The position numbers and the translations under genes are program-made. A stretch of 64,000 bases of DNA from Melioribacteraceae bacterium (GTDB lineage: Bacteria; Bacteroidota; Ignavibacteria; Ignavibacteriales; Melioribacteraceae): NCBI GenBank assembly GCA_016342755.1, contig JAEINS010000013.1, positions 1 through 64,000 on the forward strand. Direction: 5' to 3'. Below are positions 2,039 to 17,775 of this stretch, one piece after another. Each line of letters starts with the position of its first letter. Position 1 is the stretch's first letter. Below the pieces are notes generated by a model. It had not been told where the DNA came from. It ran no database searches and saw nothing but the letters and a program-made list of their open reading frames with translations.

Positions 2039-2353
2039 CTATTCAATATAAACTGCTGTTCCATAAACTAATATTTCGGCAGCATTCTGCATTATGTAGC
2101 TTGTAGAAAATCTTACATCAACTACAGCGTTTGCTCCCAGCTCCCGTGCCTGTCGTGTCATTCTATCAAGTGCCTGTTCTCTGGATTCACCCATAAGTTT
2201 TGTGTACTCTGCAATTTCTCCGCCAAATATATTTTTAAAAACAGCAATAATATCTTTACCAATATGTCTGGCTCTAATTGTATTTCCTCTAACTATTCCA
2301 AATGTTTTTTTTATCTCTTTCCCGGAAACTGCGGACGAAGTAATTACAATCAC
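2039..2353 (-). CDS. YbjQ/UPF0145 family protein
   Basis: Small cytoplasmic protein of 104 residues with the full length of the YbjQ (UPF0145, putative heavy-metal-binding) family. The family pattern is visible: an N-terminal strand with ITSS, a central GGEIAEYTKLMGESREQAL segment, and LGANAVVDVRF. It begins with GTG at 2353, which overlaps the TGA of the upstream anti-sigma-like gene (GTGA), so the two are translationally coupled. The biochemical role of the family is not settled. Here it looks like the third cistron of a sigma/anti-sigma unit. Confidence 0.85.
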   Translation of the reverse strand: MIVITSSAVSGKEIKKTFGIVRGNTIRARHIGKDIIAVFKNIFGGEIAEYTKLMGESREQALDRMTRQARELGANAVVDVRFSTSYIMQNAAEILVYGTAVYIE

Positions 2354-2793
2354 CTTTGAATCTCCTTATATTTATCTTTAGCTGAATTAAATATTTTTTC
2401 TCTAAATAATGAAAACAAAAGCATTACAAACCCGACGATTAAAGTCGCAATTCCAATTTTAATTATTATAGGTGCAGAGTTATCCGCAAAAAACTGTTCA
2501 ATTGCTTCGAGCGCGGCATAAGTAAACAGAATTATGGCTCCAACAGAAATAACTATCCAGGCAATTCCTCTTTCAAGCCTGTTATAAGTGCTCATCCAGT
2601 ATTTATCCCAAAATTCATTTGTAGGATTTTTTAATGACATTTTAGATAACACCTCCTTCACTTTCTTTTGTTCACTAAATTCTTTTTTTAATTCTTCATC
2701 GTTTTCTAATAATGAATTAAACTCTATTTTTTCTTCAGGCAATAATTCATTTTCAAAATATTTTTCAAGAAGATATATGAATCGTTCATTCAT
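2350..2793 (-). CDS. Putative anti-sigma factor, two-TM membrane protein
   Basis: The 147-residue protein has a soluble, highly charged N-terminal half (about 1-75: EKYFENELLPEEKIEFNSLL and so on), then two hydrophobic segments at about 78-98 and 108-130. The helical, Glu/Lys-rich N-terminus resembles Bacteroidetes anti-sigma N-terminal domains but has no zinc-binding His/Cys. Its ATG overlaps the stop of the ECF sigma gene (TAATG), the usual arrangement for a sigma/anti-sigma pair. Function is inferred mainly from this context: it would hold the sigma factor at the inner membrane until a signal arrives. The inducing signal is unknown. Confidence 0.65.
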   Translation of the reverse strand: MNERFIYLLEKYFENELLPEEKIEFNSLLENDEELKKEFSEQKKVKEVLSKMSLKNPTNEFWDKYWMSTYNRLERGIAWIVISVGAIILFTYAALEAIEQFFADNSAPIIIKIGIATLIVGFVMLLFSLFREKIFNSAKDKYKEIQR

Positions 2794-3296
2794 TACATTT
2801 TACTCGTTAGTTTTTTCGATAATTTTTTTCTTGTGTAAAATAGTTTTGACATAACCGAACCTTCCGGGATGTTTAATAGCTCAGCAATATCTTTATAACT
2901 AAAGTTTTCAAACTCCCTTAATATCAATATCTCGCGCTCCTCCGGTTTCAGGTCGAGCAATGCTTCGGAAACCTTATTTTTAAGTTCTTCATTAATGTAA
3001 GTTTCTTCTGCGGATTCAATTGATAAAAGATTTGAAAAACTTTCAAGATCAGATTCCCTTTTATTTTTTGTATCTCTAATTCTATTAAGGCATAAGTTTT
3101 TTAATATTTTGTAGTACCAGGTAAAAAACTTTTTATTACGGTCATATTTGTCAAAATAATTGTACGCTCTTATAAAAGCTTCTTGAGAAACATCCATTGC
3201 TTCATCATGCTGTCCTAAAATACTTAACGCTGAAAAGTAAGCAGGTTTCATGTTCTGTTTCATCAATAATGTAAATTCTTCTTTTCGGTTTTTCAA
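2793..3296 (-). CDS. ECF RNA polymerase sigma factor
   Basis: This 167-residue protein has the two-domain plan of ECF sigma-70 factors. Region 2 lies at about 10-80 (SQEAFIRAYNYFDKYD and FFTWYYKILKNLCLNRIRD). Region 4 lies at about 105-160, with a helix-turn-helix reading REFENFSYKDIAELL followed by IPEGSVMSKLFYTRKKL. It directs RNA polymerase to a small regulon, probably including its own operon. It is first in a unit with the membrane anti-sigma-like gene and ybjQ, each overlapping the next by a base or more. The divergent nitroreductase starts 120 bp away. Confidence 0.92.
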   Translation of the reverse strand: MKNRKEEFTLLMKQNMKPAYFSALSILGQHDEAMDVSQEAFIRAYNYFDKYDRNKKFFTWYYKILKNLCLNRIRDTKNKRESDLESFSNLLSIESAEETYINEELKNKVSEALLDLKPEEREILILREFENFSYKDIAELLNIPEGSVMSKLFYTRKKLSKKLTSKM

Positions 3297-4100: not shown

Positions 4101-6200
4101 ATGAAAAACTTATTCAAAATGACAAACCTCTTGTTATTACTATCTTTCATCATACTCGGCAATTTAAATGCGCAAGTTGATTTAGACACAGTAAAAGCCA
4201 AAAAATTTGATACCGGCAAAATGTGGACATTTGATTTTCCGCCAGTTGATTATTTGGATGAAACTTATGGATTTAAACCTACTGAAGAGTGGCTGGAAGA
4301 TGTCAGACTTTCAGCATTAAGATATGGCGGAGGCTGTACAGCTTCTTTTGTTTCGGCAGATGGACTTATAATGACTAATAATCATTGTGCCAGAAGAGTT
4401 AAAACCACACTTGCCGAAGAAGGTGAAGATTTAATGGGCAACGGATTTTATGCGGCAACTCTTGAAGAAGAAAGAAAAATACCCGGACTTTTTGTAGATC
4501 AGCTGGTTTTAATTGAAGATGTAACTGAAAAAATTCATAACGCAATTAATGAAGGTGAAACTGACACTGAAAAAATTGAAAATAAAAAGAAAGTTATTGA
4601 TGATTTAATAACTGAATATACTGAGGAAACTGGATTAAAGTGCAATGTAGTAACTCTATTTAACGGTGGTAAATATTCACTTTACGGTGTTAAGAGATAT
4701 GAAGATATACGACTTGTATTTATTCCTGAAGAATCAATTGGTTATTTTGGTGGTGATTTTGATAACTTTACTTTTCCTAGGTACAACCTTGATTGTGCTT
4801 TTGTAAGAGCATATGACGAAGATGGAAAACCGTTAAAAACCGAAAACTTTTTTAAATTCAGTACAAAAGATATTTCTGAAGATGATGTAATTTTTACAGT
4901 TGGAAATCCTGGAAGAACAAGCAGACTTAAAACTGTTGCGCAGCTAGAATATAACAGAGATGTTTCTTATAGAAATTCCGCCACAAGATTAAATTCGTAT
5001 TTCAACAAATTAGAATCGCTTAAATCTGTTTATCCAGAAAAAGCGGATGAATTCGAAAAAATTAAAATAAGAATTGGAAATGGTCAGAAAGTTTATGACA
5101 ATATCTACAAAGGTTTAATCGATCCATATTTAATAGCCCGTAAAAGAGATTTTGAAAATAAACTTAAAGCAGAAGTTAAAGCTAATCCGGAATTGAATGA
5201 AAAATATGGCCATGTCTGGGACGCAATAGAAAAAACCAGAACGGAATTAAAAGATTATGATCAAAAAATTTCTGCTTATTCATTAAGCCGGTTTTATTCA
5301 CCAGCGTATTTTAATATTGCTAAGGATATAATAGAATATGTTGAATCGGATAATTATAACCAGGACAGTGTAAATGTTTTTGTTGATGGTCTGTTTGCGA
5401 AAGAAATTGATGTTCCGTTAGACGGTCTTAAACTTGAGTTAACTATTGATAATGTTATTATGAATCTTGGTAGCGAAAATGAATTAGTTGAAAAATTATT
5501 TGCCGGTAAAAGTGGAAAAGAAGCTGTTGATTATATGCTTTCAAGTTCTATTATAACTGATAAAAACGCCTTAGCTGTGTTAGTAAAAAAAGGGAAAGAA
5601 GAAGTTTTTAATTCAACAGATCCATTTATATATTTTATTGTTAATACAAAAGATGAATTAAAAAAACTGACAGAACTTTCTGAAGAAGTAAATGATACAG
5701 AAGATATTTATGAAGATCTTTTGGGGCGCGCGTTATATGAAGTTCATGGCACAACAATTCCGCCTGATGCCAACTTTACATTAAGATTAAGTGATGGTAC
5801 TTTAAAATCGTTCGATTATAACGGTACCCGCGCTCAATTAAAAACTACATTCTACGGATTATATAACCGTTATTATGGAAATGATAAAGTATATCCGTTT
5901 GAATTACATGAGCGCTGGTTAACAAATGAAAATGAACTTGATAAGTCTGTTCCGTTTAACTTTATATCTACAAATGATATTGTAGGCGGAAACTCTGGAA
6001 GTGCTATTATTAACAAGGACGCGGAAGTTGTTGGTTTAGCTTTTGACGGCAACATTAAAAGTATAGTAGGCCATTTTATTTATATGCCTTATAATAACAG
6101 ATGTGTGGCTGTTTCGGCACTTGGAATGTTAGAAGCATTTAAAAGTATTTATAAAGCAGACAGACTTTATAATGAGTTAGTTGATGGAAAGCTTAAATAG
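4101..6200 (+). CDS. S46 family dipeptidyl-peptidase (DPP7/DPP11 type)
   Basis: Periplasmic serine exopeptidase that removes dipeptides from oligopeptides. The 699-residue length is normal for S46. A signal peptide occupies residues 1-24 (ending NLNAQ). The catalytic His is H95 in MTNNHC, the catalytic Asp lies in GGDFDNFTFPR near 222, and the nucleophile is S632 in GGNSGSA. Eighteen residues after the serine is G650 (LAFDGNI). In characterised enzymes this position is Gly in DPP7 (hydrophobic P1) and Arg in DPP11 (acidic P1), so a DPP7-like preference is inferred. A GAAGG ribosome site precedes the ATG. The enzyme fits an organism that uses peptides. Confidence 0.93.
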   Translation: MKNLFKMTNLLLLLSFIILGNLNAQVDLDTVKAKKFDTGKMWTFDFPPVDYLDETYGFKPTEEWLEDVRLSALRYGGGCTASFVSADGLIMTNNHCARRVKTTLAEEGEDLMGNGFYAATLEEERKIPGLFVDQLVLIEDVTEKIHNAINEGETDTEKIENKKKVIDDLITEYTEETGLKCNVVTLFNGGKYSLYGVKRYEDIRLVFIPEESIGYFGGDFDNFTFPRYNLDCAFVRAYDEDGKPLKTENFFKFSTKDISEDDVIFTVGNPGRTSRLKTVAQLEYNRDVSYRNSATRLNSYFNKLESLKSVYPEKADEFEKIKIRIGNGQKVYDNIYKGLIDPYLIARKRDFENKLKAEVKANPELNEKYGHVWDAIEKTRTELKDYDQKISAYSLSRFYSPAYFNIAKDIIEYVESDNYNQDSVNVFVDGLFAKEIDVPLDGLKLELTIDNVIMNLGSENELVEKLFAGKSGKEAVDYMLSSSIITDKNALAVLVKKGKEEVFNSTDPFIYFIVNTKDELKKLTELSEEVNDTEDIYEDLLGRALYEVHGTTIPPDANFTLRLSDGTLKSFDYNGTRAQLKTTFYGLYNRYYGNDKVYPFELHERWLTNENELDKSVPFNFISTNDIVGGNSGSAIINKDAEVVGLAFDGNIKSIVGHFIYMPYNNRCVAVSALGMLEAFKSIYKADRLYNELVDGKLK

Positions 6201-6242
6201 TATTAAAAAAATTATTATAAACCGTCCCAAAATGTAGACGGT

Positions 6243-6312
6243 TGTCAGACTGAGCTTGTCGAAGTCTGGAAGATGAACTAAATTTAGATCTTCCGACAAG
6301 CTCAAGATGACA
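6243..6312. repeat. Pair of inverted REP-like palindromes with GAGCTTGTCG loop
   Basis: Two copies of a short palindromic element face each other in the tail-to-tail spacer. Copy A (6243-6269) has stem CAGACT/AGTCTG around GAGCTTGTCGA. Copy B (6287-6312, complementary strand) has stem ATCTT/AAGAT around the same GAGCTTGTCG loop. Both carry TGTCA on the outer side. The loop is conserved while the stem bases differ and stay complementary. Together they also form one long hairpin that could end transcription from both sides. Confidence 0.7.
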
Positions 6313-6315
6313 TAA

Positions 6316-8235
6316 TTATATCTTGCTAATTATGTTCATGTTTTGTTCGTTACAAATATCTCTTGCCTCTGCAGTAAATAGAAAATCCAACCGTTGTTTA
6401 TAAAAGTCAGTTATGGTTCTTCGTACCATTTTCAAAGTTGAATTTAGCATTTTATTCTGCTCGGTAAAACCTTCTCCTAAAATAGCAACGTTAGTAGGAA
6501 GCCATCTTTCCGGGAATTCACCTTCAAATTTACCGTTAGTATTGTATTCATCAATTTCAGATTTAATTTTTAGAAGAGCTTCTTTTTGTCCGGCTTCAGA
6601 TTTGATGTTCAATCCTTTGTTTGCCACATATTTTTTTAGTGCTTCTTTATTAGGCACAATTAATCCGACAGTAAATGGCGATTGATTATTATAAAGCATA
6701 ACCTGATCAATATAAACTGAATGATCTGATAGCGATTCTTCAATTCCTTCCGGGCTATATTTTTCACCATCGCCTGCAATTAAAAGACTTTTGTTTCTTC
6801 CTAATACATAGAGAAAATTATCTTTATCAAGGTATCCTAAATCGCCTGTATAAAGCCAACCGTCTTTTAAGGCTTCAGTAGTTGCCTTTTCATTTTTCCA
6901 GTATCCGGCCATTATGTTTTCGCCTTTTGCAACAATTTCACCTTTTTTGCCAATAGGAAGTTCGTTTCCTTTTTCATCACATATTTTAACTTCTAAACCA
7001 TGCACAATTGCACCCGAAGAACCAAGTTTATGTTTAGCCGGAACATTACCGGAAATTACCGGAGCCGATTCAGATAATCCATAACCCTGAAACATTGGGA
7101 TTCCGATAGCATAGAAGAATCTTTGTAACTCAATATCTAAAAGAGCACCGCCACCGATAAAAAATTCTAACCGGCCGCCAAAACTTTCTCTAATTTTACT
7201 GAAAAGTATTTTATCGTAAAATTTTAAAAGAGGTTTCTTAAATATATTTAATCCGGTACTCTTGTTATATCCGTCCTTATTATATGTATATGCTGTTTCA
7301 AGTGCTTTATTAAACAGTTTTTCTACCTTTGGTCCTTTTGCTCTTATTCCTGCTTCAATATTTTTTCTAAAGTTTTTTGCTAAAGCCGGTACACTTAAAA
7401 GAAATGTCGGTTTTATCTCTTTAATATTTTTAGGAATATTTTTTAAAGTTTCCATAGGAGTATTACCAATCTGGATTGAAGCCATACTTGCGCCATTTTT
7501 CATTAAGGTATATATGCCGGCAGTATGTGCAAAGCTGTGATCCCATGGTAATATAAGCAGTGAAAGATATTCTTCAGGAATTGGAAGAAGTGATGTTGAC
7601 TGTTCAACGTTAGCAGTGTAATTTCTGTGTGTTAAAATAATTCCTTTCGGGTCGGCTGTTGTTCCGCTTGTATAACATATATTAGCGTAATCATCTTCTG
7701 ATAGTGACTGCCACAGCTGCTGAAATGAATCTGTGTTATTTGCTAAATACTTAGCTCCAATTGCAGCAACTTCAGAGTAAAGTAGTTCGTCAGAATCTTT
7801 TTCTTTAACTTCATCAAGCAATATTATTTTTTTTAATTGGGGCAGATCATTTTTTATCTGCGAAATTTTGTTTTGCTGAGACGCTGATACAATTACAAAT
7901 TTACAGCCCGAATGATCCAAACGGAATTTTAAATCTTGCAGTTCATCAACTTTAACAGAAATTGGAACGTTTATGCCGCCAATGTATAGAATAGATAACT
8001 CTGAAATTACCCACTGATTACGACCCTCTGATATTAAAGCAACTCTGTCACCTTTTTTAATACCATGTTCTTTTAATCCGCATGCAAAATTGTAAACTTC
8101 TTTTTTAATATCAGTATAAGTTGAGCCGACATAAGTTTTTCCATTATGCTCATGCATTAAGATGTTGTTGGGATATTTTTTTGCACTATCTTCAAAAAGT
8201 CGGGGTAAAGTTCTATTTGCCACAAATTTCTCCAA
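6316..8235 (-). CDS. Long-chain acyl-CoA synthetase (AMP-forming)
   Basis: ANL-superfamily enzyme that activates fatty acids to acyl-CoA via an acyl-adenylate. The 639-residue length fits the FadD15-like long-chain group. The AMP-binding P-loop is YTSGTTADPKGI (about 190-200), motif II is GYGLSESAPV, and the hinge region carries YTGDLGYLD. The usual GR(N/D)K segment is GRNKSLLI, and a C-terminal Lys-containing domain completes the fold. No signal peptide is present, so the protein is cytoplasmic or membrane-peripheral. It is monocistronic on the minus strand. Confidence 0.92.
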   Translation of the reverse strand: MEKFVANRTLPRLFEDSAKKYPNNILMHEHNGKTYVGSTYTDIKKEVYNFACGLKEHGIKKGDRVALISEGRNQWVISELSILYIGGINVPISVKVDELQDLKFRLDHSGCKFVIVSASQQNKISQIKNDLPQLKKIILLDEVKEKDSDELLYSEVAAIGAKYLANNTDSFQQLWQSLSEDDYANICYTSGTTADPKGIILTHRNYTANVEQSTSLLPIPEEYLSLLILPWDHSFAHTAGIYTLMKNGASMASIQIGNTPMETLKNIPKNIKEIKPTFLLSVPALAKNFRKNIEAGIRAKGPKVEKLFNKALETAYTYNKDGYNKSTGLNIFKKPLLKFYDKILFSKIRESFGGRLEFFIGGGALLDIELQRFFYAIGIPMFQGYGLSESAPVISGNVPAKHKLGSSGAIVHGLEVKICDEKGNELPIGKKGEIVAKGENIMAGYWKNEKATTEALKDGWLYTGDLGYLDKDNFLYVLGRNKSLLIAGDGEKYSPEGIEESLSDHSVYIDQVMLYNNQSPFTVGLIVPNKEALKKYVANKGLNIKSEAGQKEALLKIKSEIDEYNTNGKFEGEFPERWLPTNVAILGEGFTEQNKMLNSTLKMVRRTITDFYKQRLDFLFTAEARDICNEQNMNIISKI

Positions 8236-8474
8236 ATATTCTGTTAGATACGAATTCCTAAAAATAACTAATATTTTCTAATTAATCTCCACGGGTTAAA
8301 TTCATGTTCTTTAACGTTAAAAATAGTTCTTACAATTACTTACTGGAAGTTGTTTGAAGCATGCAGTTTATCTTTTTTTTGGGGAGGGGATTTATAATAT
8401 GGAGCGGTTATTAGAATATTATTAAATACTAATTTGACTTTGAAATACATGAATCTTCGGACTAAAATATTCAC

Positions 8475-9454: not shown

Positions 9455-10066
9455 ATGAAAAAGCAATTTAACTTATTATCAACTTTATTTGTTGTTGGTC
9501 TTATCTTTTTAGTAAGCTGTGGTGGTGGAAGACAAGTTACAAGAATTGATAAAAATGAGACTATTGATTTAAGCGGAAAGTGGAATGATACTGACGCAAG
9601 ACTTGTTGCCGAAGAAATGATTAGCGATGTTCTTAAAAGACCATGGATAGATGAGTTTTTAAAAGAGCGCGGAAAAAAACCTGTTGTAATAGTTGGAAGC
9701 GTAAGAAATAAAAGCAGCGAGCATATTGAAGTTGATATGTTCACAAAAGAAATGGAAAAAGAATTGTTAAATTCTGGTAGAGTTTCATTTGTTGCTACAA
9801 AAGATGAAAGAGAGCAGGTAAGAGATGAAAGAGCCGACCAGCAAAAATTTTCTTCGGAAGAATCTATGAAACAGTTCTACAAAGAAAAAGGTGCCGATTA
9901 TTTATTGCTGGGTGTTATTAATAGTGTAGAAGATAAGCTTGAAGGCGAAAAAGTTATTAAATATAAAGTTAATCTTGAACTTATTGATGTTGAATCAAAT
10001 ACAAAGGTTTGGATTGGCGACAAAGAAATCAAAAAATATATTGGTCAGGATAAATACGGTTATTAA
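9455..10066 (+). CDS. lpoB: LpoB-like penicillin-binding protein activator lipoprotein
   Basis: A 203-residue lipoprotein with lipobox LVSC and lipidation at C22, then a Gly-rich linker. The mature part matches the LpoB family: LSGKWNDTDARLVAEEM, KPVVIVGSVRNKSSEHI, a KGADYLLLGVINS strand, and KVNLELIDVESNTKVW. In Proteobacteria LpoB spans the periplasm and activates PBP1b; the same role here is inference. GGAG lies before the ATG. The neighbour downstream is a COG3014 lipoprotein, a pairing also found around lpoB in Gammaproteobacteria, which supports the call. Confidence 0.82.
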   Translation: MKKQFNLLSTLFVVGLIFLVSCGGGRQVTRIDKNETIDLSGKWNDTDARLVAEEMISDVLKRPWIDEFLKERGKKPVVIVGSVRNKSSEHIEVDMFTKEMEKELLNSGRVSFVATKDEREQVRDERADQQKFSSEESMKQFYKEKGADYLLLGVINSVEDKLEGEKVIKYKVNLELIDVESNTKVWIGDKEIKKYIGQDKYGY

Positions 10067-10073
10067 TAAAAAC

Positions 10074-10112
10074 ACTCCGGGTTTTTTTTGAATAATGAAA
10101 TCCGGAGTTTTT
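10074..10112 (+). terminator. Hairpin between lpoB-like and COG3014 genes
   Basis: ACTCCGG (10074-10080) pairs with CCGGAGT (10102-10108) across a 21-base loop and is followed by TTTTTC. It may weaken read-through into the next gene. Confidence 0.5.
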
Positions 10113-10145
10113 CATAACTAAACTAAAAATTAATAAGTGATCCTC

Positions 10146-11513
10146 ATGAAGTTTCAAAAATTTCTATCTTTTATTTGTTTATCACTAACTCTTATTGGGT
10201 GTGCTTCAGTTAAAACCAATACTGAATTTTATACTCCGATTATTAAAGATATAAAACATGGTGAGTATAAAAGTGCGGTTGTAAAAATTGAAAATGCTGA
10301 GAAAAGTGATGAATATGGAAATAAGGACAGAGTCCTAAAATATTTGGATAAAGGTATTATTTATCATTACGCTGGCGATTTCGAAAAAAGTAATAAAGAA
10401 TTGGAAGCCGCCGAATATGCAATGGAAGAACTTTTTACTAAAAGTATTTCTAAAGGTGCAGCTTCAATATTGTTAAATGATAATGCTCTTGATTATGCCG
10501 GTGAAGTTTACGAGAATCTTTACATCAATATTTTTAAGGCTTTAAATTATATTCAATTGAAGAAATTTGATGATGCTTATGTTGAAGTAAGAAGAGTGAA
10601 TAATAAGCTTAAAGAATTAGAAGTTAAGTATGAGGATTATGTTGAATCATTAAATAGCTCTGATGACAAAAAATTTGATATTGATCCTGTTGAACTTGAT
10701 TACTTTAATAATGTATTGGCCAATTACATGAGTCATATTATTCTGCGAGCCGATGGTAATGAAGACGGAAGCAGAATATCTTTAGAAAAACTTAATGAAG
10801 CATGGGAAGCACATTCCGATGTTTACAATTATGCAAAACCTTTTGCGGTTGACAGCACAACAACCGCAAGAGAGTTTTTTCTTAATATAATTGCCTTTGC
10901 CGGCAACGCGCCTGTTAAAGTACCAATTGGTGCACGGATTACAACTTTTAATGATTTAATTACAATAACTGATCCTACTAATTTCCATGGAGATGCGATT
11001 CCTTTTCCAGGTGTTAAAGGCGGCTATAATTTTAAATTTGAATTCCCCGAAATAGAAGAGGAAGGAACATTAGTTTATTCTATTCGGGTAAAAGTTGATT
11101 CTCAATATGTTGGTGAGCTGGAACTGCTAGAAAATATGTGCCGTGTTGCAAAAAAAACTTTTGAACAACAAAAAAGTATTACATATTTTAAGACAGCTGC
11201 CAGAGCAGTGTTAAAAGGTATTAGTGCAAATGCCTTAGGTAATAAAGCGAAAAAAGGATCTAATGGATTTCTTGGTGAACTGATGGCTGCTGCAATAAAC
11301 GTTGCTTCGGATCTTTCTGAAAATGCCGATCTTAGATGCTGGCGGACAATGCCCGGCTATAGTTTTGTGGGTGAGTTCCCGATTAACAAAGGAATTCATA
11401 ATATAGAGCTCGGGTTCTTTGACGGAACCGGAAAACTTCTTTACAAAAAGACGTTTGAAAATTATAATGTTGCCGGTGATTTTAATTTGCTTGAAGCTTT
11501 TTATCTGAATTAA
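10146..11513 (+). CDS. COG3014-family lipoprotein with TPR-like helices
   Basis: Starting at ATG 10146 gives 455 residues with a clean lipobox (LIGC, C19). A GTG at 10137 would add three residues without benefit. The helical region at about 30-200 resembles tetratricopeptide repeats (YKSAVVKIENAEK, YAGDFEKSNKELEAAEYAM, FDDAYVEVRRVNNKLKELE). The C-terminal 200 residues are probably beta-rich. The protein matches the COG3014 type that accompanies lpoB in other bacteria. Its biochemical role is unknown; a link to peptidoglycan synthase control is inferred from the neighbour. Confidence 0.72.
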   Translation: MKFQKFLSFICLSLTLIGCASVKTNTEFYTPIIKDIKHGEYKSAVVKIENAEKSDEYGNKDRVLKYLDKGIIYHYAGDFEKSNKELEAAEYAMEELFTKSISKGAASILLNDNALDYAGEVYENLYINIFKALNYIQLKKFDDAYVEVRRVNNKLKELEVKYEDYVESLNSSDDKKFDIDPVELDYFNNVLANYMSHIILRADGNEDGSRISLEKLNEAWEAHSDVYNYAKPFAVDSTTTAREFFLNIIAFAGNAPVKVPIGARITTFNDLITITDPTNFHGDAIPFPGVKGGYNFKFEFPEIEEEGTLVYSIRVKVDSQYVGELELLENMCRVAKKTFEQQKSITYFKTAARAVLKGISANALGNKAKKGSNGFLGELMAAAINVASDLSENADLRCWRTMPGYSFVGEFPINKGIHNIELGFFDGTGKLLYKKTFENYNVAGDFNLLEAFYLN

Positions 11514-11585
11514 TAGTTTGTTTGTCTTATAGACTGTACAGTAAAAGTCGGCGTTTTTATTTATACTCTGACACAAAAAAGTAAA

Positions 11586-12380
11586 TCAGCGTAATTGATT
11601 TACTTTTTTCATAAACAATTCAATTTTATCAGTGTCTAATTCATTCCCCCAACAATTCTCTTTTTTAAAGTATGAACCTATTATTAGTGCATCTGCTGCT
11701 GTAAAATAATTTTTCAAATTATCTAAGTTCACTCCGGAACCAACTAACACCGGAATTTTGGAGGTTACCTTTACATTTTTAATCTCAGAAAGATCGGCTT
11801 CTTTGCCTGTAGAAGAACCCGTAATAATAACACCGTCACTTAAGAAAAATTCGGCGGCGTGCGCTGTTTCAATTATATCGGTATCATTTGTAATTGAATG
11901 CGAGCTATGTTTCTTTTTTATATCTGTGAAGATCTTTATATTTCCGGCTCCAATTTGTTTTTGGTATCGAAGAAGTTCACCGGCATCCGAATCAAAAGTT
12001 CCTTCATCAGCTATGTGGGAAAAAACAAATCCCTCTGTACGTATAAAATCTAATCCGGCAGAATGTGAAGCGGCAAGCGATTGTATATTAGCACCGGCTA
12101 AAATTTGCATTCCTGTTGGCAGATTTGTTTTATTCTTAATTTCATAACCAATTATAGACATCAAAGTTGAAATCTCATGCCCGGCAGATTTTTTTAGATA
12201 CGGAACATCATGCATATTTTCAATTGCCAAAGCATCTATTCCGCATTCCTGGTAAGCTAAAGCCTCTTTTACCGCGGATGAAACTATATCCTTTACACTT
12301 CCATTATATTTAGGTGTTCCCGGAAGTGCTTGTATATGTATCATTCCAATTATAGGTTTGTATAATCCTAATATTTCCAT
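11586..12380 (-). CDS. BtpA/SgcQ family TIM-barrel protein
   Basis: A 264-residue cytoplasmic protein covering the whole BtpA family fold. The N-terminal PIIGMIHIQALPGTPKY and DALAIENMHDVPYL, the central LDFIRTEGFVFSHIADEG, and the C-terminal PVLVGSGVNLDNL and ADALIIGSYFKK are all family signatures. Cyanobacterial BtpA is needed for photosystem I. In non-phototrophs the family (for example SgcQ) has no firm role, and a barrel enzyme acting on a phosphorylated metabolite is likely. The gene stands alone, with a candidate promoter just upstream. Confidence 0.85.
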   Translation of the reverse strand: MEILGLYKPIIGMIHIQALPGTPKYNGSVKDIVSSAVKEALAYQECGIDALAIENMHDVPYLKKSAGHEISTLMSIIGYEIKNKTNLPTGMQILAGANIQSLAASHSAGLDFIRTEGFVFSHIADEGTFDSDAGELLRYQKQIGAGNIKIFTDIKKKHSSHSITNDTDIIETAHAAEFFLSDGVIITGSSTGKEADLSEIKNVKVTSKIPVLVGSGVNLDNLKNYFTAADALIIGSYFKKENCWGNELDTDKIELFMKKVNQLR

Positions 12381-12504: not shown

Positions 12505-12936
12505 TTATTTACTTGTGGGGTCGTATTTTTTTAGAATAAATTCAGATGTAAGTTTGAATCCATCGGCAATATCAACAAGAAAATTATTTTTCTCAAAATC
12601 AGTTTTAGAAAAATTTATTTTTTCAAATGCATTTTCATCATTTATTATATATAGAGTAAAAACAATTAGATCTTTTGTTTTTTGGTTGTCAGTTTTTTGA
12701 TACTCTTTTATTAATAGAGGAATATTCTCCTCAATTTGATATAATCCTGTAAAATAAATTGAACTGTTTTTTAGTCCCAAATTATCTGACTTAATTCCTG
12801 ATTGTAAATTTCCAATAAATTTTTCGTATTGGTTTTTTTCAATATGATTTTTTAGCTGTGCAAAAGTTTGTGTTGAAGAAAATATTACTGTTAATAATAC
12901 AGCTATTGCAAAAAACATTGTTGTTAACTTTTTCAT
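12505..12936 (-). CDS. Secreted protein of unknown function, HEAT-like helices
   Basis: A 143-residue protein with a clear signal peptide (1-26, ending TQTFAQ) and a GGAGG ribosome site 6 bases before the ATG. The mature part is all-helical and charged (HIEKNQYEKFIGNLQSGIKS, IPLLIKEYQKTDNQKTKDLI). It looks like two or three HEAT-type repeats that measure out a short solenoid. I do not recognise the family. Upstream lies a triple TGTCAT array identical in spacing to the one before the GH2-like sugar-binding gene, so the two are probably co-regulated. Confidence 0.6.
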   Translation of the reverse strand: MKKLTTMFFAIAVLLTVIFSSTQTFAQLKNHIEKNQYEKFIGNLQSGIKSDNLGLKNSSIYFTGLYQIEENIPLLIKEYQKTDNQKTKDLIVFTLYIINDENAFEKINFSKTDFEKNNFLVDIADGFKLTSEFILKKYDPTSK

Positions 12937-13000
12937 TTCATCCTCCCGGAATTTATTGTTTTTAATTCACTTCTTAAGACGGAGAGGTTGCAGAAATAGT

Positions 13001-13037
13001 TGTCATGTGCAGGTTTCATATTGTCATCAAATGTCAC
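13001..13037 (-). promoter_or_regulatory. Triple TGTCAT operator-like array (copy 1)
   Basis: TGTCAT at 13001 and 13022 and TGTCAC at 13032 (plus-strand reading) are spaced 21 and 10 bp apart, all on one helical face. The array ends 64 bp before the ATG at 12936. The same three words with the same spacings occur at 14263-14299. A small palindrome AAAACAT-GAT-ATGTTTT lies next to it at 13042-13058. Confidence 0.65.
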
Positions 13038-13129
13038 GTTAAAAACATGATATGTTTTAGATGACTTATATATGGAACTTTTCAAAATGTAAAGAACAAA
13101 ATTCAAATATAAATTGAACAATAAAGAGT

Positions 13130-14209
13130 TTACTTGAAAAACATTTCCCAGAAACCTTTTTTTCTTTTTTGGGATTTTTCTCTCTCTTTCCAAAACTCCT
13201 GGAAAGTTTTTAATTTCATAATGCCAACCGGACCTTCATAAATCCCACCATGTTGTGTTACATCTAAAACTCTAACAGCAATTAAATTTTTACTGTTAGG
13301 CGTTAAATCGGATTCATCTAAATAATAAACTCTAAGCTTATTATAATCATCCCATTCGAATTGCTCATTTTCCATATCACCAGTTGAACCAACAAGTTTC
13401 CCGTTCAGATAAACTTCATCGATGTCATCAATTTTGCCCATGACCAGAACAAATTTGCCTGACTGGTTCTGATCAAAATAAAATTCTTTTCTATACCATG
13501 CATAACCGTCATAATCTTGAAATCCATAATGCATCCAGAAACCGGGCACCATAATATTCCCCCATTCCGAGTGATCATAATCGGGTTCCTTCCAAATCAT
13601 TTCATCCCCGATATTAAATTTCCAGCTTCCGGCTAACTGAATTTCAGGATGAACTTTATTGATTTCTCTGAATATGCCAATATCGCCATAAACAATACCG
13701 CCGGCCAATTGCGAATCATAAACTCTAACTGCAATAGTATTTGCGGAGCTGAAATTTAAAACTCTATCAGGAATAGTATAAACCCGTCTGGCATTATAAG
13801 CTGTTGTATAGTTAGGAGGAAAAACTCCGGAGAAGCCTATCAATTCACCATTTATATAAACTTCATCAACATCATCTATATAACCCAAATCCAGGTAAAG
13901 ATTTTCACCTTCGTATATAGCATCTATTTGAAACTCAGTTCTATACCATGCATAACCGTCATAATCATAAAAACCTTCATCTTCCCATGTTGAAGGTACA
14001 CGGATTGTCTCCCATTCTTCATCATAAAAATCTTTTGAAGCCCACTCTTTGTAATCGCCAATTGCAAATTTCCATCTGCCTTTTAGATTAACAACTCTAT
14101 CCCAGTCACTATTGTCGGGGCTTTCAGCCTTTACGGAAAAACAGAGAAGGAAAATCAAAAACAATAATAATGATTTCCGGGACAATTTATTTGATAGAAA
14201 ACTTTTCAT
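13130..14209 (-). CDS. Secreted tandem GH2-type sugar-binding (jelly-roll) protein without catalytic domain
   Basis: ATG 14209 is preferred because AGAGGT lies 7 bases before it and the signal peptide then starts properly (ending CFSVKAES). The mature 330 residues are two copies of a galactose-binding-like domain, as found at the N-terminus of GH2 glycosidases. Each copy has LKGRWKF or LAGSWKF, VP(S/G)xW, GF(Y/Q)DYDGYAWYR, IDD(V/I)DEVY(I/L)NG and IAVRV. No TIM barrel follows. The C-terminus is short and strongly basic. It probably binds carbohydrate in the periplasm or at the cell surface. The gene follows the kinase/regulator/symporter operon but has its own operator-like array. Confidence 0.75.
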   Translation of the reverse strand: MKSFLSNKLSRKSLLLFLIFLLCFSVKAESPDNSDWDRVVNLKGRWKFAIGDYKEWASKDFYDEEWETIRVPSTWEDEGFYDYDGYAWYRTEFQIDAIYEGENLYLDLGYIDDVDEVYINGELIGFSGVFPPNYTTAYNARRVYTIPDRVLNFSSANTIAVRVYDSQLAGGIVYGDIGIFREINKVHPEIQLAGSWKFNIGDEMIWKEPDYDHSEWGNIMVPGFWMHYGFQDYDGYAWYRKEFYFDQNQSGKFVLVMGKIDDIDEVYLNGKLVGSTGDMENEQFEWDDYNKLRVYYLDESDLTPNSKNLIAVRVLDVTQHGGIYEGPVGIMKLKTFQEFWKEREKSQKRKKGFWEMFFK

Positions 14210-14234
14210 TTTATTTACCTCTAACATTATGCAT

Positions 14235-14242
14235 CAAAAATA
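14235..14242 (-). promoter_or_regulatory. Candidate -7 box for GH2-like binding protein (TATTTTTG)
   Basis: TATTTTTG on the minus strand fits TAnnTTTG and lies between the TGTCAT array and the ATG at 14209. The nearest TGTCAT then falls about where a -33 element would be, as expected for an activator site. Confidence 0.4.
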
Positions 14243-14262
14243 AATAAAGATTAAGAAAATCT

Positions 14263-14299
14263 TGTCATTGAAAAGTTTTAAATTGTCATGAAATGTCAT
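14263..14299 (-). promoter_or_regulatory. Triple TGTCAT operator-like array (copy 2)
   Basis: TGTCAT occurs at 14263, 14284 and 14294, spaced 21 and 10 bp, exactly as in copy 1 at 13001-13037. The array ends 53 bp before ATG 14209. The half-site resembles the PhoB-family TGTCAT core, but the 10-bp step differs from the 11-bp Pho box. Confidence 0.65.
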
Positions 14300-14309
14300 C
14301 GATCATGGT

Positions 14310-15518
14310 TTATTCTTTCAATTGATCAACTACAACAGCGCAAACAGCATCTCCGGTTATGTTCAATGAAGTTCTGATCATATCGAAAAGTCTGTCAACA
14401 GCGTAAAGCAGCGGAAGTCCTTCGATAGGAATATCGGCTGCTACCAGCACAGCAACAACTAATAAACTTGGTCCGGGAACACCGGCCTGCCCAATAGAAC
14501 CAATTGTAGCAGTTAATAAGATTGCAATGTATTGTGGAAGTCCCAGATCAACTCCAAACATCTGAGCAAAAAATGTAGCGGCAAGTGCATAATAAATTGC
14601 GTTGCCATCCATGTTTATTGTTGCTCCGAGTGGTAAAACAAATGAAGATGTTTCGTTTGAAACGCCAAGTTCCTCTTCGCAGACTTCAAAATTAATTGGC
14701 AATGTTGCCATTGAAGAAGCTGTAGATAAAGCCACAATTTGCGGTTTATACATTTTAGAATAAAATTTAGTTAATGGTGTTTTCGAAAGCAATTTCAAAA
14801 TAAGAGAGAAGGTTCCGAATCCGTGTAATAAAATTGCCGCAACATAAATTATCAAGAGTTTAAGAACCAATCCAAGTATATCAACACCAAATGAACCAAT
14901 AGAACTGGCCATTAGACCAAATACACCAAAAGGCGCCGTATACATAACAATTTTGATCATCCAGATTAATGCTTCTGTTATGTAATTGAATGTGTTTAGC
15001 AGAAACTCCCTTTTAGATTTTTCAAGAGTCGAGATTCCAATACCAAGCATAAGGCAAAAGAAAAGAACTTGTAAAATGTTACCATCAACAAAGGATTTTA
15101 TTGGGTTAGTTGGAATTATTCCTTTTATGATTTCCCAAAAGCCTGGTGTTGAACCTTCTCCTGCTTGTTCAATTGAAAACATATGCTGAACCGTGTTTAT
15201 ATCAAGTCCGATACCCGGTTTAAAAAGCTCGCCAAAAAATAACCCGATTAAAACTGCAATTGCAGTTGTTGATAAATAATAGATAAAAGTTGCAATACCA
15301 ATTTTACCGGCAGAGCCAGAACGCCCTAACGAAGCGGAGCCGGAGATTACAGATGCTGCAACCAAAGGTATAACAAGCATTTTTATTAGCTGCATAAAAA
15401 TATCTCCAAGAGGAGCAAACATCTGAGATTCTTCAGTCCAGATTAACCCGACAATAGTACCTAAAACCATTGCCGCTAAAATTTGGAATCCAAGATTTTT
15501 TACTAATTTCATTATCAT
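14310..15518 (-). CDS. Dicarboxylate/glutamate:cation symporter (DAACS family)
   Basis: Inner-membrane transporter of 402 residues with the eight-helix plus two-hairpin plan of GltP/DctA. Visible marks are the serine-rich hairpin (ASVISGSASLGRSGSAG), TASSMATLPINFE, the substrate and Na+ site NMDGNAIYYALAATFFAQ, and GVPGPSLLVVAVL in the second hairpin. It takes up glutamate, aspartate or C4-dicarboxylates with Na+ or H+. ATG 15518 and ATG 15512 are both possible starts. The gene begins 9 bp after the response-regulator stop, so it is probably the target of that two-component system and in the same transcript. Confidence 0.92.
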   Translation of the reverse strand: MIMKLVKNLGFQILAAMVLGTIVGLIWTEESQMFAPLGDIFMQLIKMLVIPLVAASVISGSASLGRSGSAGKIGIATFIYYLSTTAIAVLIGLFFGELFKPGIGLDINTVQHMFSIEQAGEGSTPGFWEIIKGIIPTNPIKSFVDGNILQVLFFCLMLGIGISTLEKSKREFLLNTFNYITEALIWMIKIVMYTAPFGVFGLMASSIGSFGVDILGLVLKLLIIYVAAILLHGFGTFSLILKLLSKTPLTKFYSKMYKPQIVALSTASSMATLPINFEVCEEELGVSNETSSFVLPLGATINMDGNAIYYALAATFFAQMFGVDLGLPQYIAILLTATIGSIGQAGVPGPSLLVVAVLVAADIPIEGLPLLYAVDRLFDMIRTSLNITGDAVCAVVVDQLKE

Positions 15519-15527
15519 AATTTTATA

Positions 15528-16211
15528 CTAGTTTGTTATTAATTTATAACCTACCCCGTGGATACTAATTATAAGCTGAGGTTTATTAGGATCTGATTCA
15601 ATTTTTTGTCTTAGTCTTAAAATGAAATTATCAACGGTTCTTGAAGTTGTATAAATATTTTCGCCCCAGACATTTTTAAGTAATTCATCGCGGCTTACAG
15701 TTTTATTTTTATTATTCCAGAGATGATGAATTATTTCAAATTCTTTATAGGACATATTTACCGGTTCCTCATTTTCAAAAACTGAAAAACTTGCAAAATC
15801 AAAATTCAATTTACCAATTTTAACAGTATCGGAAGACTGACCTATTGTAGTATTTCTCCTAAGAATAGCTTTAACTCTGGCAAGTAATTCGCGCAGGCTA
15901 AATGGTTTTGTAACGTAATCATCGGCACCAAACTCAAGTCCCAGAACCTTATCAAGTTCTTCCCCTTTAGCAGTTAGAAAAATAACAGGTGTCTCAATAC
16001 TTTCAGCTCTAATAGTTTTGCACAGATCAAAACCAGAAAGTCTGGGCATCATAACATCAAGTATAATTAGATCATAACTATTCTCTCTGATTTTTATCAA
16101 TCCCTTTTCGCCATCTTCCGCAAGATCAACCTCATAATTTTCAAATTCCAAATTATCTTTTAAGCCTAAGCGCATAGATGCTTCATCATCAACAACTAAT
16201 ATCTTTTTCAT
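15528..16211 (-). CDS. OmpR/PhoB-family response regulator
   Basis: A 227-residue transcription factor. The receiver domain (1-120) has the acidic pair D8/D9, phospho-acceptor D52 in ILDVMMP, Thr80 and K102 in VTKPF. A winged helix follows (about 130-225: MSYKEFEIIHHLWNN, SRDELLKNVWG, TVDNFILRLRQKIE, GVGYKL). It overlaps the 3' end of its cognate kinase gene by 23 bp and is followed at 9 bp by the symporter gene. Proteins of this type bind direct repeats. The TGTCAT arrays 1.2-3 kb downstream are plausible targets, which is inference. Confidence 0.93.
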   Translation of the reverse strand: MKKILVVDDEASMRLGLKDNLEFENYEVDLAEDGEKGLIKIRENSYDLIILDVMMPRLSGFDLCKTIRAESIETPVIFLTAKGEELDKVLGLEFGADDYVTKPFSLRELLARVKAILRRNTTIGQSSDTVKIGKLNFDFASFSVFENEEPVNMSYKEFEIIHHLWNNKNKTVSRDELLKNVWGENIYTTSRTVDNFILRLRQKIESDPNKPQLIISIHGVGYKLITN

Positions 16212-17775
16212 CCTTTATCCATAGCTTTATTTTAGGGAGTGAAATTTTAAATACAGAACCTTTTCCAACTTCACTTTTTAATTCAATTTTACCGGAATGT
16301 GAATCCACAATGTTTTTTACAATTGATAAACCAAGTCCGGTTCCTTTTGTATTATGGACATTGCCGGATGTAGCTCTGAAAAACTTATCGAATATTTTAG
16401 TCCGCTCATCATTGGAGATTCCAATTCCAAAATCTTCCACTTGGAAATATATATAATCCTTATCCTGACCGGTAGAAATAACTATTTCTTTTTTATCTAA
16501 TGAATATTTAATTGCATTATCAATCAGATTTATAACAGCCTCAGAAATTGCTTCACCATCAAACATAGTTGAATCTAAATCATGTTTATCAAATTTACAT
16601 TTAAATCCTTTGTTAGTTAAATGGAACTCATAAGTATCAATAACAAGCTGAATTATTTCGTTCAGATTATTTTCACTAACCTTATAAATTCTTTTGCCAG
16701 CTTCCATTTTTGAAAAATTTAATATCGAAGAAACTATCCGGCTTAATCTGTTTGTCTCTTTGTGAATTATTGAATAGTATTCCTTCTTTTTTTCTTCCGA
16801 TTTAATTCTATCCATTTCTAAAGTTTCAGAAAACATGCTTATCAAAGCAAGCGGAGTTTTTAATTCATGCGAAACGTTAGATACAAAATCAGATTTTAAC
16901 TGAGCAAGTTTCATTTCCTTTTTTATATTATAGAAAACAAATCCGGCAGCTATAAAAATTATTATCAAAGTAAAAACTAAAATTATGTAGTTATAACTGA
17001 GTCTGTCTGCAACTAAGTTTGAAATGGTTTCACCTTTCAGACTAATTCCCAAATTGTAAAATGGAATTAACCATAACGTTTTTTTGTTTGTCATCTTAAT
17101 TTTTTCTAATTCCGGTTCATTTGTATAAACAAGGGATGAATCTCTTATATCTTCAATTTGAGAAATGAATTTCCCTTTTATAACTTCCTGAATTTTAGGA
17201 GCCAGAGTTTCTGTAATAAAATTTCTTGAATCGATTATCATTCCATGGATATTAGTTTCGCCATTATTATTCGGCACTAAAAAGATAAGTGATAGAAATG
17301 AGCTGTTATCATTAGAAAAAAGAGGTTCAATCCTGTTGTAACCAAGATCCAAGTATTTTGATAAATAATTTTTTTTAGAGTCGATTGTTGGTTTTAGACC
17401 GTCTATAATTGCCGAAATAGAATCGCGTTCCTTTTCATCGTTTACATGAAGTGAAATATTCTCTTTGCCGATAATAAATATTGCCTTGATGGGTTTATTA
17501 TTTTGGAACAAGTTTTTGATTCTAATCTCTTTATCAGATTTTTCTAAATCAGAGTATAGAATAATACTATTTATATCACGCTGCCAATCTTTTAATATAT
17601 CTTGAGAATATTGGTTGATAGAGAAAATGATAGTCTCTAACTGCTCGTTATAAGCTTCTTCAATAAATCTTTCATTCTCATTTAAACTATTGAACTGCAT
17701 AAAAAGAATAATAATTAATGGCAAAGCAATAAGAGTTGATAGACCGGCAATTATTTGTTTTAGAGCTTTATTCAT
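16189..17775 (-). CDS. Membrane sensor histidine kinase with periplasmic sensor domain
   Basis: A 528-residue sensor. One transmembrane helix sits at 9-27 and a second at about 262-285. They enclose a periplasmic region of about 230 residues that probably has a double-Cache-like fold. After the second helix come HisKA with H303 in SNVSHELKTP, the N box LIDNAIKYS, G1 EDFGIGIS and G2 TKGTGLGLSIV. It should phosphorylate the OmpR-type regulator encoded immediately downstream. Because the third gene is a dicarboxylate/glutamate symporter, the ligand may be an organic acid or amino acid, as for DctB (inference). Confidence 0.92.
   Translation of the reverse strand: MNKALKQIIAGLSTLIALPLIIILFMQFNSLNENERFIEEAYNEQLETIIFSINQYSQDILKDWQRDINSIILYSDLEKSDKEIRIKNLFQNNKPIKAIFIIGKENISLHVNDEKERDSISAIIDGLKPTIDSKKNYLSKYLDLGYNRIEPLFSNDNSSFLSLIFLVPNNNGETNIHGMIIDSRNFITETLAPKIQEVIKGKFISQIEDIRDSSLVYTNEPELEKIKMTNKKTLWLIPFYNLGISLKGETISNLVADRLSYNYIILVFTLIIIFIAAGFVFYNIKKEMKLAQLKSDFVSNVSHELKTPLALISMFSETLEMDRIKSEEKKKEYYSIIHKETNRLSRIVSSILNFSKMEAGKRIYKVSENNLNEIIQLVIDTYEFHLTNKGFKCKFDKHDLDSTMFDGEAISEAVINLIDNAIKYSLDKKEIVISTGQDKDYIYFQVEDFGIGISNDERTKIFDKFFRATSGNVHNTKGTGLGLSIVKNIVDSHSGKIELKSEVGKGSVFKISLPKIKLWIKDEKDISC

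Follow-up and report, generated by a model that had tools for sequence, protein, structure and literature searches.

A four-unit repeat array with two types of -10 element, probably read by an OmpR/PhoB-family regulator, upstream of secreted-protein genes in Melioribacteraceae and their class

The window analyzed here, a stretch of 64,000 nucleotides from the genome of a Melioribacteraceae bacterium (contig JAEINS010000013.1, forward strand), contains two arrays of short direct repeats. Because these arrays are real, and because they recur across the class together with one sensor-regulator pair, comparison of the sequences indicates that they most likely serve that pair as the switch for a few secreted-protein genes. 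More specifically, we think it quite probable that each array is the activator operator of the adjacent OmpR/PhoB-family regulator, set on a weak promoter with a -10 element at a fixed place, and that one target gene (G) would be transcribed by the housekeeping sigma factor and the other (H) by an ECF-type sigma factor. The general kind is known: an operator-plus-promoter unit of an OmpR-family regulator, here with predicted binding. What is distinct is the layout of four units with steps of 10, 10 and 11 bp, and the presence of two types of -10 element under one operator.

The exact pattern TGTCA-N16-TGTCA-N5-TGTCA occurs at 13001-13036 and at 14263-14298 of the window, with steps of 21 and 10 bp; seen from the coding strand, which is the minus strand here, the pattern is TGACA-N5-TGACA-N16-TGACA. 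These are the two triple arrays of a preliminary description of this DNA, recovered at exact coordinates (the last TGTCA unit of array 1 reads TGTCAC) and supported by shuffling. The window includes 36 TGTCA words on the plus strand and 30 on the minus strand, and the two arrays are the only triples with steps of 6-39 bp. In 150 dinucleotide shuffles of the window, the exact array never appears, close-spaced TGTCA triples of any spacing appear at a mean of 0.08 per shuffle, and two triples of equal spacing, as the window holds, do not appear at all. A search of the bacterium's own genome (4,731,990 bp) allowing at most one mismatch to the array pattern, the genome-wide check that had been proposed, reports just these 2 matches, and 0 for a reversed control pattern. 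Thus, the probability that the arrays are chance repeats or a functionless local duplication is negligible: no shuffle produces the exact array, and distinct H and G arrays recur in relatives, a conservation that already refutes such a reading and agrees with the earlier view that this is no plain duplication. The window has no match to known RNA families at the gathering threshold.

Aligning the relatives changes how the array is read. Thirty-one arrays can be aligned over 46 columns with no gap, and on the coding strand they show TGACA at 0, T[G/T]ACA at 10, TTAC at 20, and TGACA or TGACT at 31, that is, steps of 10-10-11. The third half-site is TTAC in most of the 31 arrays; in the window it is degenerate (AAACC or AAACT), and it fills the 21-bp gap. 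A model of three half-sites and a 21-bp gap was dropped for one of four once the relatives were aligned. The triple array as described earlier has three real TGTCA units, and it missed a fourth, degenerate half-site because all that is left of the third unit in the window is its AC (AAAC). On the minus strand, array 1 (13001..13036) then consists of TGACA at 13036-13032, TGACA at 13026-13022, the degenerate AAACC at 13016-13012, and TGACA at 13005-13001, and array 2 (14263..14298) of TGACA at 14298-14294, TGACA at 14288-14284, the degenerate AAACT at 14278-14274, and TGACA at 14267-14263.

The 31 aligned arrays were used to build a sequence-only array model of 46 columns. It has two confident matches in the bacterium's own genome, array 2 (E 1.7e-6) and array 1 (E 4.2e-6), and the next best has an E-value of 0.19, which is what a small local regulon, as suggested earlier, should look like. 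A weight matrix made without the window's own two rows gives the window arrays 28.4 and 27.2 bits, and the next window position 0.6.

The order of the locus is kinase, regulator, symporter, array 2, G, array 1, H, and then a BtpA-family gene. The sensor histidine kinase (16189..17775, minus strand) has two hydrophobic segments, at residues 8-26 and 263-281, which would flank a periplasmic sensor region; fold-search matches using the whole protein as query cover mainly the kinase core. The proposed binder (15528..16211, minus strand) is an OmpR/PhoB-family response regulator by its domains, Response_reg (PF00072, 9.8e-32) and Trans_reg_C (PF00486, 2.8e-23). The sodium:dicarboxylate symporter (14310..15518, minus strand) lies between the regulator and array 2, and we place it outside the conserved unit because tblastn did not find it in 20 related loci. 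Both arrays are, as had been noticed, upstream of minus-strand genes for secreted proteins, array 2 of G and array 1 of H. The G gene (13130..14209, minus strand) encodes a secreted protein of 359 aa with two Glyco_hydro_2_N-like jelly rolls, in which no catalytic domain was found. Its start is probably the ATG at 14209 and not that at 14227, since the latter would leave a 3-nt leader. A protein search of the 57 other genomes in the relatives' set finds 24 near full-length G orthologues with 45-56% identity. The H gene (12505..12936, minus strand) encodes a secreted HEAT-like protein of 143 aa, with a predicted structure of helical repeats (pLDDT 85.8); a fold search reports no match at E<=0.001, and its best rows are designed HEAT-like alphaRep proteins. 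At 9455-12380 of the window, a gene that we take to be LpoB-like, a 458-aa gene and the BtpA gene stand together, and the same cluster is seen again in relatives (L034, L045).

Of the 58 genomes in the relatives' set, which includes the bacterium's own, 29 have arrays at E<=0.01, as have 66 of the 341 genomes of a class sample at E<=1e-3. Their targets are mostly a small secreted HEAT-like H gene or a secreted jelly-roll G gene. Among 20 related loci inspected, the arrays stand before H or G in most, and the regulator (60-73% identity) is nearby in 12; the suggested check of conservation upstream of orthologues thus comes out positive, with related arrays upstream of many G orthologues. Array-H-G or array-G-H is found repeatedly behind the regulator in further families of the class. 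Non-window arrays are outside any ORF of at least 80 aa in 52 of 53 cases, and 48 of 53 have an ATG ORF of at least 50 aa starting at most 500 bp away. An H-family gene is present within 300 bp for 30 of the 35 non-window arrays first labelled H. With the window's own, 36 promoters were first labelled H; 31 are verified, and 5 are not before a detected H gene.

Targets also change, which we count against our best explanation. Genus g52 has four arrays first labelled H, and a TonB-receptor gene replaces H there: three of the arrays (L102, L106, L107) have an 823-aa ORF 130 bp downstream, the L106 protein is by Pfam a TonB-dependent receptor with a CarboxypepD_reg domain, and the other two proteins begin alike. 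No ATG ORF was found downstream of the fourth. In one genome (G040) a third array, also first labelled H, precedes the gene of a TonB C-terminal protein (L041:8779-9225), downstream of G. The targets identified are thus secreted or outer-membrane proteins and a TonB_C protein, with the kinase itself added in a single genome (G031), where one array stands before the kinase gene; this last array speaks for our best explanation. Against it, the bacterium's own kinase-regulator operon has no array upstream (best score -18.8). In named Bacteroidota and KSB1, nine loci with G homologues were inspected by eye for an upstream array and none was seen; L130, L131 and L137, where the stretch looks coding, are uninformative. 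The listings of the literature searches contained nothing recognised as the array or the locus, and no paper on the two-component system.

What ties the arrays to the regulator is where they occur. A regulator orthologue (at least 59% identity; next best 48%) is present in 31 of the 58 genomes, and a kinase orthologue in 30, leaving out a partial kinase-core match in G039. The array and the regulator are both present in 28 genomes, the array only in 1 (G009), the regulator only in 3 (G022, G043 and G049), and neither in 26 (Fisher 8e-12, kinship of genomes ignored). For the 341 genomes of the class, using thresholds of E<=1e-75 for the regulator and E<=1e-3 for the array, there are 54 with both, 12 with the array only, 21 with the regulator only and 254 with neither, 75 having the regulator (Fisher 1.4e-33, again with kinship ignored). 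As for the exceptions in the first set, G009 has arrays and no detected regulator orthologue in a genome that is 86% complete, G022 and G043 have the regulator and no array at E<=0.01, and in G049 a weaker array, scoring 12.4 and below threshold, stands some 300 bp ahead of H. Linkage adds to this. Of the 100 arrays listed, 54 are on the same strand and at most 3 kb downstream of the regulator; outside the 58 genomes, 34 of the 59 arrays listed are 0-3 kb past the regulator stop on the same strand, many within about 100 bp. We regard the linkage outside the 58 as the stronger evidence, since the co-occurrence counts ignore kinship and loci of the first set served to build the model.

Could a different regulator of the same family bind, the arrays merely traveling with the kinase-regulator operon? 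The bacterium's own genome has at least 3 further OmpR-family regulators with 42-45% identity, and the G009 arrays without an orthologue would fit as well, but arrays distant from the operon (G023:C5, G013:C84, G027:C16, G010:C17) are in genomes with the orthologue on another contig, and 26 of the 27 genomes without the orthologue show no array at E<=0.01. We consider another binder improbable, and the adjacent regulator as the one that would read the arrays. Its RTVDNFI segment, which we take to be the recognition helix, has R, T, D, N and F invariant in 38 regulators. Direct repeats at steps of roughly 10-11 bp are what the OmpR/PhoB family reads, and the regulator-linked arrays have 10-10-11 steps. 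The regulator resembles RegX3, MtrA, YycF and PhoB, and reaches no cut-off among the 25 NCBIfam matches listed; for the equivalogs, the scores and cut-offs are 216.9 vs 270 and 214.5 vs 296.2 for PhoB, 218.1 vs 340 for YycF (WalR), and 164 vs 341 for CpxR.

The promoters were compared using 53 of them, 51 from relatives and the 2 of the window. Seven of 60 matches were left out of the counts, one inside an ORF (G002:C1:118131) and six with E>=0.0046. Downstream of array 2, the TAnnTTTG box reported earlier is real: TATTTTTG, of the Bacteroidota housekeeping type, is at 14242-14235 on the minus strand (14235..14242), at column 61, 25 bp downstream of where half-site 4 begins, with a predicted +1 at 14230. 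TAnnTTTG is absent at array 1. In the same register there is CGTCTTA (12975..12981, minus strand), an ECF-type -10-like element with a predicted +1 at about 12968, and ACAAC(T), an ECF-type -35-like element (12999..13003, minus strand), overlaps half-site 4. This register is shared. TAnnTT[TA] is present at column 61 in 27 of the 53 promoters, and in no more than 3 at each of the other columns between 44 and 99; GTCT/GACTA is present at column 61 in 19 of 53 and in at most 1 elsewhere. The distance from array to start codon, 64 vs 53 bp, which had been taken as a difference of one helical turn, is incidental; it reflects leader length and not helical phase, because both arrays are equidistant from the -10-like element.

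The two types distribute differently over the two genes. At column 61, the 16 G promoters include 11 with TAnnTT[TA] (window array 2 among them), none with GTCT, and 5 of neither type, and beyond the relatives' set there are G promoters with a CGTA-type element (L196, L197). No conserved -35 of their own was seen in the G promoters. Among the 31 verified H promoters, 20 are of the GTCT/GACTA type (window array 1 included) and 11 of the TAnnTT type. Lineages differ as CGTC, CGAC or CGTA at about one place. A fifth unit similar to TTACA or TGACA, 9-10 bp past the fourth, is found in 8 of 16 TAnnTT-type vs 1 of 20 GTCT-type promoters (counted on those first labelled H). One genome has tandem arrays before a single H gene (G009:C13 365145 and 365259; L203/L101), with GACTAA vs TAnnTTT as -10.

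In Flavobacterium johnsoniae, TAnnTTTG begins with its T at -12 (PMC6847099); by that measure the half-sites would lie at about -68, -58, -48 and -37, and the +1 would fall on column 73. Of the 36 promoters first labelled H, 33 have a purine at column 73 and 33 a pyrimidine at column 72; the corresponding numbers for the 16 G promoters are 14 and 8. By this predicted spacing, the position of the array is that of a class II activator, one that replaces or overlaps the -35 element.

The observed arrays, with their conservation, register, target genes, and linkage to and co-occurrence with the regulator, could then work as follows, where we infer binding, phosphorylation, activation as opposed to repression, and the sigma factor of each promoter. 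Two dimers of the phosphorylated regulator would sit head-to-tail on the four half-sites (about -68, -58, -48, -37), beside or in place of the -35 element, and would recruit RNA polymerase to a weak promoter with its -10 at a fixed distance. The targets in the bacterium's own genome would be G, through TAnnTTTG and the housekeeping sigma factor, and H, through ACAACT/GTCTTA and an ECF-type sigma factor. The same geometry might suit a repressor, which by occupying the -35 would block polymerase until a signal arrives, and half-site 4, at about -37 to -33, does overlap the ECF-type -35 of the H promoters. We find a repressor unlikely, however. The register of half-site 4 to the -10 is fixed across many promoters, which an activator that touches sigma needs and a repressor does not; the G promoters have no conserved -35 of their own; and there is precedent in PhoB, which according to PMC4971064 is needed at ECF sigma-VreI promoters.

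On which sigma factor would read the H promoters, the evidence points both ways. In one genome (G114), the locus is followed by genes for an ECF sigma factor and an anti-sigma factor with zf-HC2 and HEAT_2 domains. This anti-sigma, whose two parts are separated by one hydrophobic segment in both copies inspected, is present in 31 of the 58 genomes, own included, and in 24 of the 29 genomes with arrays vs 7 of the 29 others (Fisher 1.5e-5, kinship ignored). In the bacterium's own genome, contig C37 (L235) has at 5550-8339 an operon of ECF sigma, zf-HC2/HEAT anti-sigma and DUF4097 genes, with an autopromoter of the type [A/C]CAACC[T/A]TT..GTC[T/A]AA. This promoter type, seen at the GTCT-type H promoters, is common to 28 of 29 ECF/anti-sigma loci (L205-L233, only L224 failing; L193 failed as well), and in L234, outside that count, no ECF promoter was found by eye. 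By a criterion of ACAAC as -35, GTCTAA as -10, and 17-18 bp between AAC and GTCT, array 1 fits an ECF-type promoter, ACAACTATT-18-GTCTTA, with a score of 12.1 to which the last half-site contributes in the -35 part, and 0 of 100 letter shuffles score as high. Also in the window, at 2350-3296, there is another ECF sigma gene, similar to that of G114 (E 2.6e-15); a small membrane-protein gene comes next and probably encodes its anti-sigma factor.

That GTCTTA is instead a housekeeping -10 of variant form, or a conserved element of some unrelated kind, is a reading that we give a substantial minority chance. In none of the 58 genomes does AACT-N15/16-CGTCTWA show an excess over its reversed control (own genome 5+4 vs 9+10), the control being uneven as it is without the CG dinucleotide, and a genome-wide ECF regulon defined by that pattern was set aside. 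The likeness to a -35 comes in part from the half-site: 11 of 20 GTCT-type H promoters have an ECF matrix score of at least 10, but so do two G promoters, through an inner half-site, and 3 of 16 G promoters score 7.9-10 via an inner half-site with a poor -10. Against this, the promoter is shared by the 28 ECF/anti-sigma loci, the CGTC, CGAC and CGTA variants keep about one place, and AACT directly past half-site 4 is found in 17 of 20 GTCT-type vs 1 of 16 TAnnTT-type promoters (Fisher 4e-6). The anti-sigma does not separate the types, being present in 15 of 18 GTCT-type genomes vs 9 of 11 other array genomes, and G009, G017 and G042, all three with promoters of the GTCT type, gave no anti-sigma match. 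Given these three genomes, the missing genome-wide excess and the missing separation, we treat the ECF part as a lead.

Of 30 anti-sigma ORFs, 28 match the HEAT repeats of the H family, with E-values from 2.4e-11 to 0.004, and no further ORF outside H does, in a small test set and with HEAT being generic. An E-value of 1.5e-18 between H and an anti-sigma was inflated, the protein having entered the model, and was recomputed without that protein. We can speculate, tentatively and with some doubt, about a two-input envelope circuit, in which the kinase-regulator pair and an ECF sigma with its HEAT anti-sigma would converge on one promoter whose -35 is the last half-site. H, as a secreted stand-alone HEAT protein akin to the presumed periplasmic sensor part of the anti-sigma, might feed back on the sigma factor, by competing for the anti-sigma's ligand or by binding the anti-sigma. 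A switch between housekeeping and ECF sigma within the regulon would then require a change only in the -10 and in the bases past the last half-site.

What do we gain? A two-component system acquires a predicted operator, a tiny and testable list of targets, and predicted start sites. The promoters make a natural series, one operator with two sigma-type -10 elements at the same spacing, so that the sequences themselves would show sigma switching under a single activator, which can be tested directly. The preliminary description's picture of a small local regulon, with the regulator at 15528-16211 as candidate binder, is supported; absent from it are the fourth half-site, the spread over the class and the two kinds of -10.

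Among known systems, the pho box is similar in having an OmpR-family regulator and direct repeats of the TGTCA type; unlike in E. coli, TGTCA is here on the template strand. The two targets here are not phosphate genes, and the NCBIfam cut-offs for PhoB are unreached. PhoB binds as head-to-tail dimers, in E. coli and P. aeruginosa, to a box at or just upstream of the -35 (PMC4971064, PMC3348028), and its repeats are 7-bp units plus 4 bp, an 11-bp step (PMC4971064). Here there are four units with steps of 10, 10 and 11 and an inner TTAC, which depart from the 11-bp step and agree with the earlier remark that the half-site is PhoB-like and the step is not that of a Pho box. The P. aeruginosa PUMA3 system has a PhoB box upstream of an ECF sigma-VreI promoter and requires both inputs, which shows, by analogy, that an OmpR-family regulator can be required at an ECF promoter (PMC4971064). 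The likeness is that of a response-regulator box at an ECF promoter, with the sigma factor presumed in our case; the PUMA3 pho box is two repeats upstream of the -35, whereas here the last of four half-sites overlaps the -35-like element. The WalR/VicR site, given in PMC4168254 as TGTWAH-N5-TGTWAH, resembles ours in a half-site TGT[A/C]A on one strand and in having exported targets, and YycF has the best NCBIfam score among the matches listed, below its cut-off; it differs in having two half-sites, 11 bp apart, vs four here. Finally, the Bacteroidota housekeeping promoter, TTTG/TAnnTTTG (PMC6847099), shares its -7 element with array 2, other G promoters and some H promoters, and differs in that the array here occupies the place of the -33 element.
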